Made by a program: the position numbers and the translations under genes. The notes below the pieces were generated by a model that did not search any database, was not told the origin of the DNA, and worked only from the letters and a program-made list of their open reading frames with translations. From an uncultured Clostridia bacterium (GTDB lineage: Bacteria > Bacillota > Clostridia > Christensenellales > Borkfalkiaceae), in contig CALVWN010000032.1 of assembly GCA_944367415.1 (NCBI GenBank), positions 1 to 59,315 of the forward strand: a DNA stretch of 59,315 nucleotides, in the 5' to 3' direction. This document shows, in pieces, positions 49,445 to 59,262 of this stretch; position 1 is the first letter of the stretch, and each line of letters opens with the position of its first letter.

Positions 49445-50560
49445 TCAGCCTCCGAAGGCGCGTGCCGCCTCATTCATGGCGCGTGCTGCCGCCTGCACCT
49501 CTTCCATCGTGTTGGAGGGGCAAAAACTCACACGCACCACCCCGTCCAGGATCTTGCCGTCATATCCGCACGCCTCCAAAACACGGCTGTGCGGTTTTTT
49601 GGAATTGCAGGCGCTGCCCGTTCCGACCGCAACGCCCAGATCCCAGAGCATTCTTTGCAGCGTCTCTCCCCTTTTTCCGGGTGCGGAGACCGTCAGAATA
49701 TAGGGTGATCCGCCCTCCGGCGAGATGCGCACAAACAGCTGTTTGTCGAGCAGCGACCAGAGCTGCTCGCGCATGGCGGCGATGCGCGCAGCATCCTTCT
49801 CGAGCGATGCAAATTTTTCCTGCGCCGCATAATAAAAGCAGGCAATGCCGTAGACGTTCTCCGTTCCGCTCCGCAGCCCGTTTTCCTGTCCGCCCCCGTG
49901 AAGGTAAGCGGAAAGCGCGGAATAGCCCTTTCTGCGCAGGAGTGCGCCCGTTCCCTTGAGCGCGCCGATCTTGTGCGCGCTGACAGAGTACAGATCGATG
50001 TCTTTCGTGAGGCGGAACGCGAGCTTTCCGTAAGCCTGTACGCCGTCGCTCATGAAGACGGCACGCGGATTTTTCTGCTTGACGCGGCGGGCAATGTCCG
50101 CAATGTCGTTGACGGCGCCCGTCTCATTGGAAACATGGATGACGGAGACGAGCGAAGTCTTTTCGTCGACGAGAGACAACAGCGCATCGACATCCACGCT
50201 TGCATCCTTGTTAAGGGGCGCAAATCGTGTCTCCACGCCGCGGTTTTTCAGTTCCTTATAGCTTTCGAATACAGCGGAGTGTTCCCCCATCGTGGTGACG
50301 GCGTTGCCGCGCCGTGCCGCGGAAAAGATCGCCTGATTGTCCGACTCTGTTCCGCAGGAGGTAAATATGAGGGAAAAGAGTGCAGGATCTGCGATTTGTT
50401 CCAAGAGAAAACCGCGTGCGTCGCGAATCAGCCGCGCCGCTTCCGCACCGCCGTGGTAGAGTGCGGAGGGATTATAGTAACATTCGGTAAGATAGTGCGC
50501 AGCACGGGCAAGCGCCCCGTCTGAGGGGCGCGTTGTCGCTGCATTGTCAAGATAGATCAT
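49445..50560 (-). CDS. Cysteine desulfurase (NifS/IscS-like, ThiI partner)
   Basis: The PLP enzyme transfers sulfur from cysteine to acceptors. Its PLP lysine is in SVSAHKIGALKGTG and the active cysteine in VGTGSACNSKKPHSRVLEA. FTSCGTESDNQAI is the cofactor-phosphate loop, with Cys where most have Gly or Ser. The 371-residue protein resembles the short NifZ-type desulfurases that sit beside thiI in Firmicutes and serve tRNA thiolation. The ATG overlaps the stop of the upstream membrane gene by 4 bp. Confidence 0.94.
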   Translation of the reverse strand: MIYLDNAATTRPSDGALARAAHYLTECYYNPSALYHGGAEAARLIRDARGFLLEQIADPALFSLIFTSCGTESDNQAIFSAARRGNAVTTMGEHSAVFESYKELKNRGVETRFAPLNKDASVDVDALLSLVDEKTSLVSVIHVSNETGAVNDIADIARRVKQKNPRAVFMSDGVQAYGKLAFRLTKDIDLYSVSAHKIGALKGTGALLRRKGYSALSAYLHGGGQENGLRSGTENVYGIACFYYAAQEKFASLEKDAARIAAMREQLWSLLDKQLFVRISPEGGSPYILTVSAPGKRGETLQRMLWDLGVAVGTGSACNSKKPHSRVLEACGYDGKILDGVVRVSFCPSNTMEEVQAAARAMNEAARAFGG

Positions 50561-51162
50561 TTGCTTTCAAACTTGTTTCTGCCTGCCGCAAGGACGAGAA
50601 ATTCGAGCAGCTCCATTCTGCATTCCAACACATAGATCTGTTTTCCCGCAGGGGAAGAATAGAGCAGATAGATAAACTTTTTCCCCTCCGCAGGTTCGTG
50701 GTTGGGTGTGAGCGGAATTGCCTTTTTTCCGTTCTGACCCGCCATGATGCGCTCAAAAGAATTGCTTTCCACATAGCCGATCTGCAGGATCTGCGACGCC
50801 TTGAAGGTGTGCAGATGCTTCCTCGATTTTCCGTTGAAGACCTTTGTAACGCGCAGCTCGTCCTCCACGAAGGTGTAGTCGAAGCTGACATTAAATTTGC
50901 GTTTCAAATAACGGAACAGGAAAAAGAACCCGACCAGGAAGAGAATGGGAAGCAGCCACATGACGACGGCGATCGCCTTGTCGGCACCCGTCATCTCATC
51001 GTTGGAGAGGAGCGCCGGTACATAGGTGAGCGAGAAAAACACGAGAAGTACGGCGATGACGAGGACAATGATACTTGCAATGTGAAAGATGAGATAGGAG
51101 CGCCGTTCTGCTTTTTCACGCGTTGTGATCGCGCTCTCTTCATAGAATGCCGAGCGTGCCAT
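50557..51162 (-). CDS. Two-helix membrane protein, DUF6106-like
   Basis: A 201-residue protein with two transmembrane helices (about 26-50 and 65-85) and a cytosolic beta-rich domain (FNVSFDYTFVEDELRVTKVFNGKSRK) that resembles a bacterial PH-type or DUF6106 domain. I recognise the pattern but no function. It shares one base with the end of carB::dapF and overlaps the desulfurase gene by 4 bp, so it belongs to the same transcription unit. Confidence 0.75.
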   Translation of the reverse strand: MARSAFYEESAITTREKAERRSYLIFHIASIIVLVIAVLLVFFSLTYVPALLSNDEMTGADKAIAVVMWLLPILFLVGFFFLFRYLKRKFNVSFDYTFVEDELRVTKVFNGKSRKHLHTFKASQILQIGYVESNSFERIMAGQNGKKAIPLTPNHEPAEGKKFIYLLYSSPAGKQIYVLECRMELLEFLVLAAGRNKFESK

Positions 51163-54100
51163 CAGAACTCCACCGTGCCTTCATAGATTTTTTCGACATT
51201 GCCCGTCAGCGTGACGTGTCCGTCTTCGGAGTGATAACGCACAAAGAGATCTCCGCCCTTGACTTTGACGGTGATGTCGGTATCCGCCTTGCAAAGCCCG
51301 TTCAGCACAGCGGCGATCGCAGCCGCCGCAGCGCCGGTGCCACACGCCCACGTCTCGCCGTTGCCGCGCTCCCAGACGCGCATCTTGACCGTGCTCTCAT
51401 TGACGACGCGGATAAATTCCACATTCGTCTTTGCCGGGAAGTATTCACTGTTTTCGATGCGCGGCCCGAGCGTTTCAACGGGTACGTCATCCACCTTTTC
51501 GCAGAAGATGACGCAGTGCGGGTTGCCGAGATTGACGAGCGTGACATGATAGGTCTTGCCGTCCAGCTCCATCGGCTGATTGACGATGCGCTCCCCCTTC
51601 CAGACGGAGGGAATACACTCGCCGCGCAGCTCCACCGTTCCGAGGTCGGCACTGGCGGACGTCACGACGCCGCCGAAGGAGTACACCTTGACGTCGCGTA
51701 CGCCGCTCATCGTCTCGATCGTCATTTCCGTCTTGCGGACGATCCCCTTTTCATAGAGATACTTCGCGACACAGCGGATGGCATTGCCCGCCATTTGCCC
51801 CTCGCTGCCGTCCTGGTTGAAGATGCGCATCTTCGCATCCGCAACTTTGGAGCGTTCGATGAGCACGATGCCGTCGCCGCCGATGCCGTAGTGACGGTCG
51901 ACGAAGTTGACCGCCAGCGATTCGGGGCAGGTGATCTTGCCGTCAAGATCCTCAAAGTAGATATAGTCATTGCCGCACGACTGCATTTTGACGAATTTCA
52001 GTTCCGTCTTTTTGGTGCGCAGATTGTTGATATCGACAAGCTCGGTGTTGTACTCCGTAAACTTGCTGGCGAGAATGTCGCAAAGAGAGTTCGCCGTGTC
52101 GAGAGAGGTCAGCACGGTGATGCCGAGCAGGATGGCATGGTGATGCAGCTCGATATAGTCGTTGATGGAGTCGACGTCCGTCTTGCCCGTATAGATGATA
52201 TAGTCGATCTTCCCCTCATCCATCAGCCCGGAGACCTGTTTGGTCGCCTTGAGCCGATCGACCACGGTGACGTCGATGCCGAGATCGGAGATGACCTTCG
52301 CCGTTCCCGCCGTCGCATAGAGATTACAGCCGAGGTCGGCGAATTTTTTTGCGATGGAGACGATCTCAAATTTATCCTGGTCGTTGACGGTGAAGTAGAC
52401 GCCGACCGGCTTTTCCTTGGTCGGGTGGCACATCTTGAAGCCCGCCGAGACAAGCCCCTTGAAGAGCGCTTCCTCGATGGTCTTGCCGATGCCCAGAACC
52501 TCGCCCGTCGACTTCATCTCGGGGCCGAGCTGCGAGTTGACGTCGTTGAGCTTTTCAAAACTGAATACGGGCACCTTGACGGCAACGTAGGGCGAATTGG
52601 GATACAGCCCAGTGCCGAAGCCGAGCTTTTTGAGCTTCGCCCCCACCATGATCTTGGTCGCAAGCTCCACCATCGGCACGCCCGTCACCTTGGAGATATA
52701 CGGAATGGTGCGCGACGCGCGCGGGTTGACCTCGATGACGTAGAGTTGATTCTGATAGATGAGGTATTGAATGTTGATCAGCCCCTTCGTCTTTAAGGAG
52801 AGCGCGAGCTTGGTGGAAATATCAACGATCTTCTCGAGCATCGCGTCGCTCAGATGATAGGGCGGATAGACGGCGATGGAGTCGCCGGAGTGGACGCCTG
52901 CGCGCTCGATATGCTGCATGATGCCGGGGATGAGTACGTCGACGCCGTCCGAGATGGCATCCACTTCCAGCTCACTGCCCATGAGGTATTTGTCGCACAG
53001 GACAGGATTTTCAATGTGCTGAGCGAGGATGACGTCCATATAGCGGGAGATGTCATTCTCGGTGAAAGCGATGGTCATGTTCTGCCCGCCAATGACATAG
53101 GAAGGCCGTAGCAGCACGGGATAGCCGAGCTTCTCCGCTGCGGCGATCGCCTCCTCTTTGGTCATGACGGTAAGTCCCTTCGGGCGCGCAATGTGGAAGG
53201 CCTCCAGCAGCTCGTCGAAGCGTTCGCGATCCTCCGCCATATCGACGGAATCGGCGCTCGTGCCGAGGATACGCGTTCCCGTTTTGTCGAGATAGCCGCA
53301 CAGCTTGATCGCCGTCTGTCCGCCGAAGGTGATGACGACGCCGTAAGGCTTCTCCACGTCGAGCACGTTCTGCACGTCCTCGGGCGTGAGCGGCTCAAAA
53401 TACAGTCTGTCCGCCGTATCGAAGTCGGTGGAGACCGTCTCGGGGTTATTGTTGATGATGATGACCTCGTAGCCGAGCTCCTTGAGTGTCCAGACGCAGT
53501 GAACGGAGGAGTAATCGAACTCGATGCCCTGTCCGATGCGGATGGGCCCGGAGCCGATGACTACGATGCGCTTTTTCTTGCTGGTCTTTACGAAGGGCAG
53601 CGCTTCATCGTGATCGGGTTCATCGTAAGTCGAGTAGAAATAAGGGGTCTGCGCGGCAAATTCCGCAGCGCAGGTATCGACCATCTTGAAGACGGCGCGG
53701 CGGTGCGGCGGCAGCTTTTCGCCCGAGAAGCGCGCAAGCGCCTTGTCGGGATAGCCGAGTTTCTTTCCCGTCAGATAGACGCTGCGGGAGAGTTTTTTGC
53801 TCGCGATCTCCCCTTCATAGTCAACGAGGTTTTTGAGTTTAGTAAGGAACCACTCGTCGATCTTCGTCACCGAATGGATCTCGTCGACGGAGATCCCCTT
53901 CTTGAGCGCCGCAAAGACCGCAAACAGTCTCTCGTCCGTCATCTTGCCGATCTCGACGCGCAGCTCTTCGGCGGTCATGCCCTCAAATTTCGGATGATTG
54001 AGGGTGTCCAGTCCGATCTCCGCGCCGCGCACCGCCTTCATGATCGCCTGTTCAAAGGAGGTGCCGATCGCCATGACCTCTCCCGTCGCCTTCATGCGGG

Positions 54101-55220
54101 AGCCGAGTTCGCGCTTTGCATAGAGGAATTTGTCGAAGGGCCACTTTGGCAGTTTGACAACGACATAGTCGATCGCCGGCTCGAAGCAGGCATATGTCTT
54201 GCCCGTGACGTCGTTTCTGATCTCATCGAGCGTATAGCCGAGCGCGATCTTGGTCGCGACCTTTGCGATGGGATAGCCCGTCGCCTTACTTGCGAGCGCC
54301 GAGGAACGCGACACACGCGGATTGACCTCGATGACCGCATAGTCAAAGCTGTCGGGATGCAGCGCAAACTGGCAATTACAGCCGCCCTCGATGCCGAGTT
54401 CGGTGATGATATTGAGGGATGCCGTGCGCAGCATCTGATATTCCTTGTCGGAGAGGGTCAGACAGGGCGCGACGACGATGGAGTCGCCCGTATGGATGCC
54501 GACGGGATCGAAGTTCTCCATCGAGCAGACGGTGATGACGTTGCCGGCGCTGTCGCGCAGCACCTCGAATTCGATCTCCTTCCAGCCGCCGATGTACTTT
54601 TCGATGAGCACCTGCGTGATGGGCGAGAGCATGAGCCCGTTGTGGGAGATGAGACGCAGCTCCTCCTCGTCATGCGCGACGCCGCCGCCCGCGCCGCCCA
54701 GCGTGAACGCAGGGCGCACGATGACGGGATAGCCGAGGTTGCCGGCGATGGCGACGCATTCCTCCACCGTATAGGCAATGTCGGAGGGAACGACGGGCTG
54801 GCCGATCTTCTGCATGGTCTCCTTGAACAGCTCACGATCCTCCGCGCGGTCGATGGCGTCCAGTTTGGTACCGATGAGCTTGACGCCCCACTCGTCCAGA
54901 AATCCCTCTTTGGCGAGTTTGCATCCCATTGTCAGCCCCGTCTGTCCGCCGAGCGAGGCAAGCAGGGAGTCAGGACGCTCTTTTATGATGATGCGCTTGA
55001 GGCTGTCCTCGGTGAGCGGTTCGAGGTAAATTTCATCCGCGAGCATCCTGTCCGTCATGATGGTCGCGGGATTGGAGTTGCAGAGGACGACGTTGACGCC
55101 CGCGTCCTTCAGCACGCGGCACGCCTGCGCGCCCGCATAGTCAAATTCGGCGGCCTGTCCGATGACGATCGGCCCGGAACCGATCACGAGCACTTTCTTG
55201 ATGTCACTTCTCTTCGGCAT
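51162..55220 (-). CDS. carB-dapF: Fusion: carbamoyl-phosphate synthase large subunit (CarB) + diaminopimelate epimerase-like domain (DapF)
   Basis: One frame of 1352 residues without a stop. Residues 1 to about 1070 are complete CarB: two ATP-grasp halves (SGPIVIGQAAEFDYAG; SGPIRIGQGIEFDYSS), an oligomerisation part and the C-terminal MGS allosteric domain ending TSLDTANSLCDIL. A linker of about 15 residues leads into a full DapF-like domain from about residue 1074 (LKFVKMQSCGNDYIYF, GIGGDGIVLIER, LGNPHCVIF, ETWACGTGA). The second catalytic cysteine is Cys1293. At the first site the motif reads GQMAGNAIRC, so the usual cysteine of MCGN is Ala1144. The junction has no start codon of its own with a ribosome site. 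ATG 55220 follows AGGAGAAG. It overlaps carA by 17 bp. CarB activity is near certain; epimerase activity is open. Confidence 0.93.
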   Translation of the reverse strand: MPKRSDIKKVLVIGSGPIVIGQAAEFDYAGAQACRVLKDAGVNVVLCNSNPATIMTDRMLADEIYLEPLTEDSLKRIIIKERPDSLLASLGGQTGLTMGCKLAKEGFLDEWGVKLIGTKLDAIDRAEDRELFKETMQKIGQPVVPSDIAYTVEECVAIAGNLGYPVIVRPAFTLGGAGGGVAHDEEELRLISHNGLMLSPITQVLIEKYIGGWKEIEFEVLRDSAGNVITVCSMENFDPVGIHTGDSIVVAPCLTLSDKEYQMLRTASLNIITELGIEGGCNCQFALHPDSFDYAVIEVNPRVSRSSALASKATGYPIAKVATKIALGYTLDEIRNDVTGKTYACFEPAIDYVVVKLPKWPFDKFLYAKRELGSRMKATGEVMAIGTSFEQAIMKAVRGAEIGLDTLNHPKFEGMTAEELRVEIGKMTDERLFAVFAALKKGISVDEIHSVTKIDEWFLTKLKNLVDYEGEIASKKLSRSVYLTGKKLGYPDKALARFSGEKLPPHRRAVFKMVDTCAAEFAAQTPYFYSTYDEPDHDEALPFVKTSKKKRIVVIGSGPIRIGQGIEFDYSSVHCVWTLKELGYEVIIINNNPETVSTDFDTADRLYFEPLTPEDVQNVLDVEKPYGVVITFGGQTAIKLCGYLDKTGTRILGTSADSVDMAEDRERFDELLEAFHIARPKGLTVMTKEEAIAAAEKLGYPVLLRPSYVIGGQNMTIAFTENDISRYMDVILAQHIENPVLCDKYLMGSELEVDAISDGVDVLIPGIMQHIERAGVHSGDSIAVYPPYHLSDAMLEKIVDISTKLALSLKTKGLINIQYLIYQNQLYVIEVNPRASRTIPYISKVTGVPMVELATKIMVGAKLKKLGFGTGLYPNSPYVAVKVPVFSFEKLNDVNSQLGPEMKSTGEVLGIGKTIEEALFKGLVSAGFKMCHPTKEKPVGVYFTVNDQDKFEIVSIAKKFADLGCNLYATAGTAKVISDLGIDVTVVDRLKATKQVSGLMDEGKIDYIIYTGKTDVDSINDYIELHHHAILLGITVLTSLDTANSLCDILASKFTEYNTELVDINNLRTKKTELKFVKMQSCGNDYIYFEDLDGKITCPESLAVNFVDRHYGIGGDGIVLIERSKVADAKMRIFNQDGSEGQMAGNAIRCVAKYLYEKGIVRKTEMTIETMSGVRDVKVYSFGGVVTSASADLGTVELRGECIPSVWKGERIVNQPMELDGKTYHVTLVNLGNPHCVIFCEKVDDVPVETLGPRIENSEYFPAKTNVEFIRVVNESTVKMRVWERGNGETWACGTGAAAAAIAAVLNGLCKADTDITVKVKGGDLFVRYHSEDGHVTLTGNVEKIYEGTVEF

Positions 55221-56286
55221 TTCTCTTCTCCTTCTGCATTTTCTCGATAAAGCGGTCAAACAGGAAATTGGCGTCATGCGGGCCGCCGCACGCCTCGGGG
55301 TGGAACTGCACCGTGCTTGCATTCACCTCGGGATAGTCGACGCCCTCGCAGGTGCCGTCGTTGCCGTTGATGAACGTCAGCTCCCCCACGCCCTTGACGG
55401 AGTCGCTCACGACTTCGTAGCCGTGATTTTGCGAGGAGATGAACACCTTTCCCGTCGTAAGATCTTTGACGGGCTGGTTGGCGCCGCGGTGGCCGTACTT
55501 CATCTTGCGCGTCTGACCGCCCATTGCAAGGGCAAAGAGCTGATGCCCGAGGCAGATGCCGAAGATGGGCTTCTTTCCGATGAGTTTGCGGATATTTGCG
55601 ACCACTTCCACGTTCTCTGCGGGGTCGCCCGGGCCGTTGGTGAGCATGATGCCGTCGGGATCGTAGGAGAGCGCCTCCTCCGCCGTCGTATTTGCGGGGA
55701 CTTCGATGACATAGCAGCCGCGCGCGACGAGCTCGCGCACGATATTCTGCTTTGCACCGAAGTCGTAAAGCACAACGCGCAGCCCCTTCTCGTCGCCGGA
55801 CATCGTCACCCTGTCCGATGAGACCGTCTTGACGGCGTCTCTGACGCGGTATGCCTTCAGCGCCGCAAAATCGTCGAACGGGCGGAAGGTGATCGCCGCA
55901 TTCATGACGCCCGCCTCGCGGACGATGCGGGTGAGCTCACGCGTATCCACGCCGAACACGGCGGGAATGCCCTGATCCTTGAGGAACTGCTCCAGTGTCA
56001 TCTCACAGCGGAAATTGGAGGGTGCGTCGCACTTTTCGCGCACGACATACGCAGTCAGCCAGCATTTCTTGCTCTCCTTGTCGGAGAGAATGATACCATA
56101 GTTTCCGATGAGCGGGAAGGTCTGCGTGACGATCTGCCCGTAGTAGCTCGGGTCGGTGAGCGTCTCGATGTATCCGGTCATGCCTGTCGTGAAGACAAGT
56201 TCGCCGATCACCTCTTTCTCTGCGCCGAAGGAGTACCCTTCGAACACCTTGCCGTTCTCCAATGTAAGATATACTTTCTTGTACAT
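55204..56286 (-). CDS. carA: Carbamoyl-phosphate synthase small subunit
   Basis: The glutaminase subunit that feeds ammonia to CarB for arginine (and pyrimidine) synthesis. The N-terminal CPSase domain has TTGMTGYIETLTDPSYYGQIV. The class I amidotransferase domain carries the nucleophile in FGICLGHQLFALAMG and the His/Glu pair in VQFHPEACGGPHD. The 360-residue length is usual. It lies between argF and carB, so this pair is probably the arginine-controlled one. Confidence 0.97.
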   Translation of the reverse strand: MYKKVYLTLENGKVFEGYSFGAEKEVIGELVFTTGMTGYIETLTDPSYYGQIVTQTFPLIGNYGIILSDKESKKCWLTAYVVREKCDAPSNFRCEMTLEQFLKDQGIPAVFGVDTRELTRIVREAGVMNAAITFRPFDDFAALKAYRVRDAVKTVSSDRVTMSGDEKGLRVVLYDFGAKQNIVRELVARGCYVIEVPANTTAEEALSYDPDGIMLTNGPGDPAENVEVVANIRKLIGKKPIFGICLGHQLFALAMGGQTRKMKYGHRGANQPVKDLTTGKVFISSQNHGYEVVSDSVKGVGELTFINGNDGTCEGVDYPEVNASTVQFHPEACGGPHDANFLFDRFIEKMQKEKRNAEEK

Positions 56287-56301: not shown

Positions 56302-57204
56302 TTATTTCATGACCTTGCACAGAACCGCTTTCTGCGCGTGCAGCCTGTTCTCCGCCTCTTCGAAGATCTCGTCGGCGTGCGCTTCGAACACCTCTGCGGT
56401 GATCTCCTCGCCGCGGTGTGCCGGAAGACAGTGCAGTACCATCGCGTCATGCTTTGCAACGGACATTGTATCCGCATTGATCTGATAGCCCGCAAACGCC
56501 TTCTCGCGCTTTGCTTTCTCCTCTTCCTGTCCCATCGACGCCCACACGTCGGTATAGAGAACGTCCGCATCGGCTGCCGCCTCTTTGACGTCCGTCGTCA
56601 TTGTGAACGAACCGTTCTCCTTCGCCCATGCGACGAGTTTTTCATCCGGCTCATATCCCTTCGGGCAGGCGATCGCAAAGGACATCCCCATCTTGACCGC
56701 ACCGACCATGAGCGAGTTTGCCATGTTGTTGCCGTCACCGATGAAGCACATCTTCAGCCCCTTGAAGGTACCCTTGCGTTCCCGGATGGTCATGAGATCG
56801 GCAAGTACCTGACAGGGATGGCAGTAGTCGGTCAGCCCGTTGATGACGGGGATGGAGCCGTACTTTGCAAGATCCTCCACTTCCTTCTGCGCGAATGTGC
56901 GGATCATGATGGCGTCGAGGTAGCGGGAAAGCACGCGCGCCGTGTCCTCCACGGGCTCGCCGCGCCCGATCTGCAGATCGCGGTTGGACAAAAAGAGCGC
57001 GTTGCCGCCCAGCTCGTACATCCCCACTTCAAAGGAGACGCGGGTGCGAGTGGACGATTTCTGAAAGATCATGCCCAGCTTTTTCCCCTTCAGATATTCC
57101 TTGAAGATGCCGTGCTTGCGCTCATACTTGAGCTGATCGGCAAGATTGAGGATGGACAGGATCTCCTCGCGCGAGAGATCTGCAAGTTTCAAAAGATGTT
57201 TCAT
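56302..57204 (-). CDS. argF: Ornithine carbamoyltransferase
   Basis: It makes citrulline from ornithine and carbamoyl phosphate, the product of the next two genes. The carbamoyl-phosphate motif is SSTRTRVSFEVGMYELGG, the FMGD-type ornithine block is GDGNNMANSLM, and the catalytic HCLPAHRGEEIT is present. The 300-residue length is normal. It overlaps the argD stop by 4 bp and precedes carA by 15 bp. Confidence 0.97.
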   Translation of the reverse strand: MKHLLKLADLSREEILSILNLADQLKYERKHGIFKEYLKGKKLGMIFQKSSTRTRVSFEVGMYELGGNALFLSNRDLQIGRGEPVEDTARVLSRYLDAIMIRTFAQKEVEDLAKYGSIPVINGLTDYCHPCQVLADLMTIRERKGTFKGLKMCFIGDGNNMANSLMVGAVKMGMSFAIACPKGYEPDEKLVAWAKENGSFTMTTDVKEAAADADVLYTDVWASMGQEEEKAKREKAFAGYQINADTMSVAKHDAMVLHCLPAHRGEEITAEVFEAHADEIFEEAENRLHAQKAVLCKVMK

Positions 57205-58364
57205 CGGAGTACCTCCCTGAGGATGGACAGACCTTCGTCCATCTCCGTCTTTGTGATGGTGAGCGGCGGAACGAGGCGCAGCCGCTTATGCGCCGTCAGA
57301 ACGAGCAGCCCATGTTCGAGGCAGGCGGCGGCGACCTGCTTCGCATCCTTGTCGAGATCGAGCCCGATCATCATGCCCAGCCCCGTGACTGCACGGACGC
57401 CGTCCAGATTTTTCAGCTTTGCGCGCAGATAGGCGGCCTTCCCCTGTACTTCGAGCAAAAAATCCTTTGTGATGCGGGAGATGACGTTGATCGCTGCCGC
57501 GCAGGAGACGGGATTGCCGCCGAATGTCGAGCCGTGATCGCCCGCCGAGAAGGCATTCTCCGCCCGCTTGAAGAAGAGACAGGCGCCGATGGGAAGTCCT
57601 CCCGCAAGTCCCTTTGCGGTCGTCACGATGTCGGGCGTGATGCCGTACTGCTCATAGGCGTACAGTGTGCCGCAGCGGCCGTTCCCGCACTGCACTTCGT
57701 CACAGATGAGCAGAACGTCGCTCTCCGCACACCATGCGGCGAGTTCTTTGACGAAGCCCTGGTCGAGCGCCGTCACGCCGCTCTCCCCCTGCACGCACTC
57801 GATGATGACCGCGCAGGTATCCTCTCCCGCGGCGCGCTTCACATCGGCAATGTTCGCCTCCGCATAGGAGACGTCGGGAACGAACGGCCCGAAATACTTG
57901 TGAAATTCCTCCTGTCCCGTCGCCGTCAGCGTGAAGAGCGTGCGCCCGTGGAAGCTGTCCTTTAAGGAGACGATGCGGCTCCTTCCCGCCCCGTATTTCA
58001 TGAAAGAATACTTTCTCGCAGCCTTCAGCGCGCACTCGTTGGCTTCACCGCCCGAGTTGGAGAAGAACACGCGCTTTGCCCCCGTCCTCTCGCAGAGAAG
58101 TCTGGCGAGCTTTACCTGCGGTTCCGCATAGTAGTAATTGCTGACGTGCTGGATCTTGCCGAGCTGTTCGATGACGGCAGCCTTCCATTCCTCGTCGTTT
58201 GCGCCGAAGATATTGACGGCGATCCCCGCGCCGAAGTCGATGTATTCCTTCCCCTCGCTGTCCGTAAGCGTTGCGTTCTTGCCGCCCACGAGCGCGACGG
58301 GATAGCGCGCATACGTTCTGGCGAGATATTCGCCGTCCAGCTCCCTGATTTCCTGAAAATTCAT
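57201..58364 (-). CDS. argD: Acetylornithine aminotransferase
   Basis: A class III PLP aminotransferase that makes N-acetylornithine from the semialdehyde; the family often also serves N-succinyl-diaminopimelate. The PLP lysine is in TTAKGLAGGLPIGA, the aspartate in LLICDEVQCGNGR, and the phosphate loop is FSNSGGEANECALKAAR. The 387-residue protein starts at ATG 58364 after AAGGAG; an ATG at 58412 inside argB is rejected. The arg operon context supports ArgD. Confidence 0.95.
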   Translation of the reverse strand: MNFQEIRELDGEYLARTYARYPVALVGGKNATLTDSEGKEYIDFGAGIAVNIFGANDEEWKAAVIEQLGKIQHVSNYYYAEPQVKLARLLCERTGAKRVFFSNSGGEANECALKAARKYSFMKYGAGRSRIVSLKDSFHGRTLFTLTATGQEEFHKYFGPFVPDVSYAEANIADVKRAAGEDTCAVIIECVQGESGVTALDQGFVKELAAWCAESDVLLICDEVQCGNGRCGTLYAYEQYGITPDIVTTAKGLAGGLPIGACLFFKRAENAFSAGDHGSTFGGNPVSCAAAINVISRITKDFLLEVQGKAAYLRAKLKNLDGVRAVTGLGMMIGLDLDKDAKQVAAACLEHGLLVLTAHKRLRLVPPLTITKTEMDEGLSILREVLR

Positions 58365-58404
58365 GACGCTCCTTATAATCGTAAAAATGGGTGCCTGAAA
58401 AAAA

Positions 58405-59262
58405 TCAGTCACCTTTTACGAACATGGTACCCAGCCCCTCGTCCGAGAGAAGCTCAAGCAATATGGAATGTTTGACTCTGCCGTCCGTGATAAAGACGCG
58501 CCCCACGCCGTTGCGGATGGCGTCGCGGCAGCAGTTGACTTTGGGGATCATGCCCCCCGAAATGACGCCCTCTTTGACGAGAGAGGGAATGTCGGAGACG
58601 TACACCTTCTTGATGAGGCTGCTTTCATCGTCCCGCGAACGGAGCAGTCCGCGTACATCCGTCATGAGGATGAGGCTCTCCGCTTTGAGCGCACCCGCAA
58701 TGGCGGATGCCGCGGTGTCCGCGTTGACGTTGTAGATATTGCCTTCGTCGTCATACCCGACGGTGGAGACGACCGGGAGATACCCCGCGTCCAGGCAGCT
58801 CGTCAGAATGTGCGTGTTCACCTCGTCGATCTTGCCGACGAAGCCGAGCTCCTCGCTCTCCTTGCTGCACTTCAACAGATTCCCGTCGATGCCGCAGATG
58901 CCGATCGCCCGCGCGCCCATCGAACCGAGCATATGCACAAGGTTTTTATTGACTTTGCCCGCAAGCACCATCCGGACGACTTCCGCCGTCTCTTCATCGG
59001 TATAGCGCAGTCCGTTGACAAAGCGGGATTCGATCCCCATGCGCTTCATGGTCTGGGAGATCTCCGGGCCGCCGCCGTGAACGAGCACGACCTTGATCCC
59101 GACAAACCGCAAAAGCGTCATGTCGCGCATGACCAGCCGCTTTAACTCGTCATCCGTCATGGCGTTCCCGCCGTACTTGACGACCAGAATTTTATTCTGA
59201 TATTTCTCGATGTAGGGCATTGCCTCCAGGAGAAATTCTGCCTGTTCTTCCTTTCCGATCAC
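58405..59262 (-). CDS. argB: Acetylglutamate kinase
   Basis: It phosphorylates N-acetylglutamate, the second step of arginine synthesis. The ATP site is KYGGNAM, the substrate loop LVHGGGPEISQTM, and the closing block is ISGGMIPKVNCC with VNADTAASAIAGAL before it. The N-terminal helix (EQAEFLLEAMPYIEKY) is the form found in arginine-inhibited hexameric enzymes. It starts with GTG at 59262, which overlaps the argJ stop (GTGA). The 285-residue length is typical. Confidence 0.97.
   Translation of the reverse strand: MIGKEEQAEFLLEAMPYIEKYQNKILVVKYGGNAMTDDELKRLVMRDMTLLRFVGIKVVLVHGGGPEISQTMKRMGIESRFVNGLRYTDEETAEVVRMVLAGKVNKNLVHMLGSMGARAIGICGIDGNLLKCSKESEELGFVGKIDEVNTHILTSCLDAGYLPVVSTVGYDDEGNIYNVNADTAASAIAGALKAESLILMTDVRGLLRSRDDESSLIKKVYVSDIPSLVKEGVISGGMIPKVNCCRDAIRNGVGRVFITDGRVKHSILLELLSDEGLGTMFVKGD

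Follow-up and report, generated by a model that had tools for sequence, protein, structure and literature searches.

The window, a stretch of 59,315 nucleotides from an uncultured Clostridia bacterium, contains a reading frame in which CarB, the large subunit of carbamoyl-phosphate synthase (CPS), is continued by a domain of the diaminopimelate epimerase DapF. The locus raises the question of what an epimerase-derived domain does at the end of a CPS, and whether it is still an enzyme. The control of CPS is a textbook case, and an added amino-acid-binding domain together with an altered nucleotide region, in a branch of gut and other Bacillota, would be, if true, a new mode of that control.

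The carB::dapF frame and its distribution

The earlier note had described CarB and DapF as fused in a single frame, both full length, with no internal ribosome site; the single frame and the full length of both parts were borne out. No internal stop codon lies between the ATG and the stop of the 1352-codon frame (Table 1), and the fusion recurs in the 175 genomes compared. The NCBIfam model TIGR01369 matched residues 2-1048 with 1408.9 bits (cut-off 1027) and TIGR00652 matched residues 1075-1350 with 262.2 bits (cut-off 114.65). Pfam domains agreed, giving the CarB domain order followed by DapF; by sequence, the first part belongs to the CarB family and has its domain order, and the fused domain belongs to the DapF family. 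Among codons 1041-1100, which span the junction, the sole in-frame start codon is ATG 1079, upstream of which no clear ribosome-binding site was seen. The GC3 is similar across the junction, at 0.80 on the CarB side and 0.78 on the DapF side.

Table 1. Features of the carB::dapF locus, with positions in the window.
Feature	Position	Strand	Basis
argB, acetylglutamate kinase	58405..59262	-	TIGR00761
argD, acetylornithine transaminase	57201..58412	-	TIGR00707
argF, ornithine carbamoyltransferase	56302..57204	-	TIGR00658
carA, overlaps carB by 17 bases	55204..56286	-	TIGR01368
carB::dapF, single ORF, 1352 codons and stop	51162..55220	-	Frame read; start ATG 55220, stop 51162-51164
CarB part, residues 1-1073	52002..55220	-	TIGR01369
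MGS (allosteric) domain of CarB, residues 952-1038	52107..52367	-	PF02142, 44.1 bits (cut-off 24.1)
Residues 1010-1029, YTGKTDVDSINDYIELHHHA, where the STSxKGRxPxRDSVKIRRKA-type motif is expected	52134..52193	-	
DapF domain, residues 1074-1352	51165..52001	-	TIGR00652
Codon of Ala1144, which replaces the first catalytic Cys	51789..51791	-	
Codon of Asn1287, site varying most consistently with the first Cys	51360..51362	-	
Codon of Cys1293, second catalytic Cys, retained	51342..51344	-	

An artefact, whether a frameshift or a chimeric contig, is ruled out by the recurrence of the fusion in 175 genomes, single-contig ones included. A sequencing error near position 52000 is likewise not the cause, because the fusion occurs in other families and classes, including the single-contig genomes G069, G606, G964 and G985.

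The gene order argB-argD-argF-carA-carB::dapF is that of an arginine operon, and the small subunit gene carA adjoins carB::dapF. Directly behind the fusion lies an ORF of 201 amino acids (50557-51162, reverse strand), the N-terminal half of which resembles membrane helices by eye; neither NCBIfam (at E 1e-10) nor Pfam (over its cut-off) gave a match to it.

In 61 genomes of the window's genus, 33 CarB copies are whole or nearly whole within their contig, and all are fused, with frames of 1313-1409 amino acids; the remaining genuine CarB matches are broken by contig ends. Nine genomes of the genus have stand-alone DapF alone; in eight of them no convincing CarB was seen, and in the ninth (G035) the CarB match is broken where the contig stops. 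Three genus genomes without CarB (G009, G030 and G033) gave neither an ATCase nor an OTCase match and kept stand-alone dapF; judging from these matches, they seem to have lost the use of carbamoyl phosphate as a whole. Beyond the genus the fusion was found in many families when 396 genomes of the order, 393 of the class and 299 of the phylum were searched, frequencies at these three levels being "at least" values. Among the matches listed for the phylum, those of 14 genomes, one of which is the window's own, extend across both parts.

The comparison table comprises 175 fused copies from 42 families. Outside it stand G021, G022, G028, G339 and G400, whose fused copy is split by contig ends, and other genomes in which the fusion was also seen, among them G455, G518, G609, G612, G644, G659, G701, G713, G771, G964, G977, G996 and G1015 and further genomes of the genus.

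A CarB tree of 42 sequences, with its root placed on L377, puts the fused copies in a single clade with a support of 97. An unfused CarB, L374 of G893, is nested in this clade and likely represents loss of the DapF domain; L340, also scored as unfused on the tree, comes from the genus and is interrupted by the end of its contig. The six unfused CarB loci L372-L377 were searched for a DapF-like ORF within 6 kb of sequence, and none was found. The simplest reading suggested by the tree is one fusion event, after which the fusion spread vertically, perhaps also horizontally, and was rarely lost.

The earlier note knew of no described protein of this architecture. Likewise, no description of a CarB-DapF fusion was met in the open-access titles and abstracts listed, although such fusions may exist in protein databases as automatic annotation. 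The nearest paper, PMC9026213, makes no mention of one in the part of its text available.

Catalytic cysteines and other sources of meso-DAP

In canonical DapF, proton transfer is carried out by two cysteines. Meso-diaminopimelate (meso-DAP) is also yielded, without an epimerase, by meso-DAP dehydrogenase (Ddh), which appears as a separate route in the available text of PMC9026213. Single-cysteine mutants of Corynebacterium glutamicum DapF (CgDapF) and of PddB are reported to be almost dead (PMC5296763, PMC8225329), the C83A mutant of the former having lost its activity almost completely (PMC5296763).

In the window's fused domain the first cysteine (Cys1) is replaced by Ala1144 and the second (Cys2) is retained as Cys1293, so that one of the two catalytic cysteines is missing. 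A second, stand-alone dapF, for which the earlier note had proposed a search, was found in the same genome (G000:C65:9819-10640) and encodes both cysteines. The fused DapF of the window is, from its residues, probably not a working epimerase. The proposal of two enzymes on one chain is not supported for the window's genome; it does fit other families (f14, f32 and most of f6), in which no DapF besides the fused two-Cys domain was found and the chain could be bifunctional.

Among the 175 fused copies, 69 have both cysteines, 86 have lost Cys1 alone, 19 have lost both and one has lost Cys2 alone. Cys1 is thus lost in 105 copies, 86 of which retain Cys2, and its place is taken by Ala, Gly, Ser or Thr. 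Stand-alone copies, defined as DapF-like matches outside CarB, kept Cys1 in 106 and Cys2 in 105 of the 108 that were fetched for reading of the cysteine pair. Two stand-alone DapF-like sequences, L087 (G037) and L085 (G056), have SGNG and ASGSS in place of the two cysteine motifs and belong to another DapF-like family.

The state of Cys1 follows the presence of stand-alone DapF. Across 153 unambiguous genomes of at least 90% completeness, fused Cys1 was kept in 57 of the 66 without stand-alone DapF and lost in 80 of the 87 with it (Fisher p 2e-24, kinship ignored). Completeness was entered by hand for low values and set to 95 for the others, and G416, at 88%, was excluded. Tree-based pairs, drawn on two trees, all lay in the expected direction, with 3-6 supported, which is not significant. 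Both cysteines are kept beside stand-alone DapF in 8 of the 175 fused copies; redundancy therefore permits the loss of Cys1 but does not force it.

For 11 fused genomes no two-Cys DapF of any kind was found, and ten of these, G311 being the exception, have Ddh. The enzyme was present in 10 of 27 other fused genomes checked, comprising 9 of 16 in which a two-Cys fused copy is the only DapF and 1 of 11 with a Cys1-lost fused copy and stand-alone DapF. These counts suggest that catalysis is usually lost from the fused domain in cells with a further source of meso-DAP, a rule that fits most genomes.

Loss of Cys1 falls into 12 lineages on one quick DapF tree, in which the inner branches are weak and four stand-alone copies fall among fused ones; the minimum number of Cys1 changes on two other trees is 11 and 9. 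In 11 of the 12 lineages Cys1 was lost first or alone, f188 being without both cysteines, and Cys2 was lost first in one other copy (G236), an order bias with a binomial p of 0.006 on one tree. The window's copy sits in the largest Cys1-lost lineage. In Candidatus Gallimonas, taken here to be a genus of the order Christensenellales, a subclade of five genomes (L041, L052, L032, L033 and L034 of G016, G002, G006, G007 and G024, respectively) has fused DapF domains without both cysteines, in frames that are full length unless cut by a contig end.

Selection, ligand pocket and role of the fused domain

Within the genus, the median pairwise dN/dS was 0.143 for the one-Cys domain (225 pairs), 0.245 for stand-alone DapF (115 pairs) and 0.052 for the 200 CarB residues that precede the DapF domain (214 pairs), the pairs underlying each median not being independent. 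The subclade without both cysteines had a median of 0.31 (10 pairs), its three closest pairs giving 0.06-0.15. By these ratios the one-Cys domain of the genus is under purifying selection, as opposed to plain decay. The fused DapF thus has the marks of a pseudoenzyme, being derived from an enzyme, having lost a catalytic residue and being kept by selection.

Residues of DapF that contact DAP are named in PMC8225329 and PMC5296763. These contacts (H. influenzae numbering) are present in the window's fused domain and are kept, depending on the site, in 77 to 86 of the 86 one-Cys copies. In the 19 copies without either cysteine, N64 is kept in 19, E208 in 18, R209 in 14, N157 in 13 and N190 in 13. 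Ligand binding cannot be general, because some of these 19 copies have an eroded pocket (N190 in 13 of 19).

Residue 1287 is the site that varies most consistently with Cys1. It is Ser or Thr in all 69 two-Cys fused copies and Asn or Ile in 87 of the 105 Cys1-lost copies, where one of the latter two is the majority state in 7 of the 12 lineages; no Asn occurs among the 107 of 108 stand-alone copies listed. By alignment the residue adjoins the Arg213-Gly214 loop of CgDapF, which is described as moving on DAP binding, when the two lobes of the protein close (PMC5296763).

The reading preferred here, at a little under an even chance, is that the fused DapF is a pseudo-epimerase which CPS has retained as a ligand-binding regulatory domain. 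Since a catalytic cysteine has been lost and the binding pocket kept, the domain may act as a sensor rather than as an enzyme. Its likeliest ligand, as far as the pocket residues indicate, would be DAP. The substrate of PddB has no distal carboxyl, and PddB is reported to have lost the residues that hold this group (PMC8225329), whereas the fused domain has kept them; DAP is for this reason preferred over ornithine or arginine.

The main rival is a structural role, in which CarB would need the DapF-derived domain for folding, for oligomerisation or for holding the allosteric domain, and ligand binding would be irrelevant. It would account for fusion of all 33 whole or nearly whole CarB copies of the genus, for the persistence of copies without cysteines as full-length frames and for the low dN/dS (0.06-0.15) of close pairs among them, but a scaffold has no need of the pocket residues and Cys2 that most one-Cys copies keep, and the unfused CarB L374 lies inside the fused clade. 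As a general explanation the scaffold is possible, with a lesser claim than a regulatory domain; for the copies without cysteines it is likely.

Changed chemistry is considerably less probable. The one-Cys domain might use Cys2 as its sole base, for example in the elimination or dehydration of an amino acid, or might remain an epimerase with another acid/base group in place of Cys1. The retention of Cys2 in 86 Cys1-lost copies and the recurrent change at residue 1287 agree with this; the substitutes for Cys1 (Ala, Gly, Ser and Thr), however, are mostly not acid/base groups, the contacts retained are those for DAP, the former substrate, and the single-cysteine mutants of CgDapF and PddB are all but inactive, as cited above (PMC5296763, PMC8225329). 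A decaying remnant, that is, a redundant DapF surviving merely through its in-frame position with carB, would match the loss of Cys1, the five-genome Gallimonas subclade without both cysteines and its median dN/dS of 0.31 (10 pairs), but is very improbable given a one-Cys median (0.143) below that of the stand-alone enzyme (0.245), no truncated copy among 33 whole genus copies and a DAP pocket that has been kept.

The MGS domain and the proposed mode of control

The STSxKGRxPxRDSVKIRRKA-type motif of the MGS domain is presumed here to line the phosphate site and to have a role in UMP/IMP binding, and Lys993 of E. coli CarB is assumed to correspond to the MGS residue aligned with it. In E. coli CarB the IMP site is placed within residues 937-1073, and Thr977 and Lys993 are named for UMP (PMC6245113).

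The motif was present in 6 of 6 unfused CarB, judged by eye, and in 69 of 70 fused CarB with Cys1 kept, the exception (G453) having one Arg to Cys change within it. It was absent from all 71 copies of the main one-Cys clade with enough CarB tail for the test (of 73), many of which have YTGxxxDxTxxDYIxLHRRA, and from 3 of 3 copies of one f4 group. The window has YTGKTDVDSINDYIELHHHA in its place, in an MGS fold still recognised by PF02142. At the position aligned with Lys993, all 69 two-Cys copies have Lys, as do 4 of 6 unfused and 29 of 103 Cys1-lost copies; the window has Arg. Twenty-nine copies of other Cys1-lost lineages retain the motif, so that the loss of Cys1 and the MGS change are not strictly coupled. 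The distribution suggests that the motif may have been lost in one or two events.

An ATCase scored above the cut-off in 28 of the 31 motif-lost genomes checked and in 21 of the 22 other fused genomes, so that pyrimidine synthesis from carbamoyl phosphate is still open to most of these cells. The same 28 of 31 weaken the idea that the motif was lost since CarB serves arginine alone. Of the 31 motif-lost genomes, 22 have an OTCase-like match about 3-6 kb upstream of the fused DapF, with contig and strand shared by the two; the count for the other fused genomes is 1 of 22. The main one-Cys clade accordingly seems, from gene neighbourhood, to be tied to the arginine operon, and control within that operon may have contributed to the MGS change or may offer an alternative cause of it.

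Under the regulatory reading, the following course of events is proposed. The sequences support that a single dapF copy was joined behind carB, most likely once, and that the fused copy lost Cys1 in about a dozen lineages, usually where stand-alone DapF or Ddh supplies meso-DAP. The one-Cys domain would still bind a diaminopimelate-like amino acid in the kept pocket, and lobe closure driven by the ligand would be passed via the neighbouring MGS domain to the synthetase sites. The CPS of the arginine operon would in this manner answer to DAP, its old nucleotide site being weakened or gone. The whole of this proposal, namely that DapF was captured once by CPS and became a diaminopimelate sensor in about a dozen lineages, replacing the nucleotide switch in the main clade and making arginine and pyrimidine synthesis answer to the supply of a peptidoglycan precursor, is speculative and would have to be called doubtful.

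The fused copies offer a natural series within one protein, from the two-Cys domain that is the sole enzyme, through the one-Cys domain with its pocket, to the domain with no cysteine. This makes it possible to test how an enzyme becomes a pseudoenzyme, the condition that releases the fused copy from its catalytic duty being the presence of stand-alone DapF or Ddh. Annotation pipelines that count the fused domain as DapF misjudge the DAP and lysine pathways in these genomes.

Several known systems resemble the fusion in part. E. coli CarB shares the domain order up to the C-terminal allosteric domain (PMC6245113) and ends there, without a DapF part. Stand-alone DapF, such as that of C. glutamicum, shares the fold family and the DAP contacts; it differs in having both catalytic cysteines and in being unfused. 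Human CPS1 is likewise a CPS with an enzyme-derived domain that lacks its catalytic cysteine (Ser294 in the glutaminase-like domain) and is described as controlled through its C-terminal domain (PMC4655335). In CPS1, however, the part that has lost its activity is the ancestral glutaminase, NAG acts as effector by binding to the MGS-type L4 domain, and there is no DapF-like part. E. coli DapF, described as the epimerase, is reported to regulate RppH, an unrelated enzyme and a separate protein, by contacting it directly (PMC4227774), which gives a precedent for a regulatory DapF.
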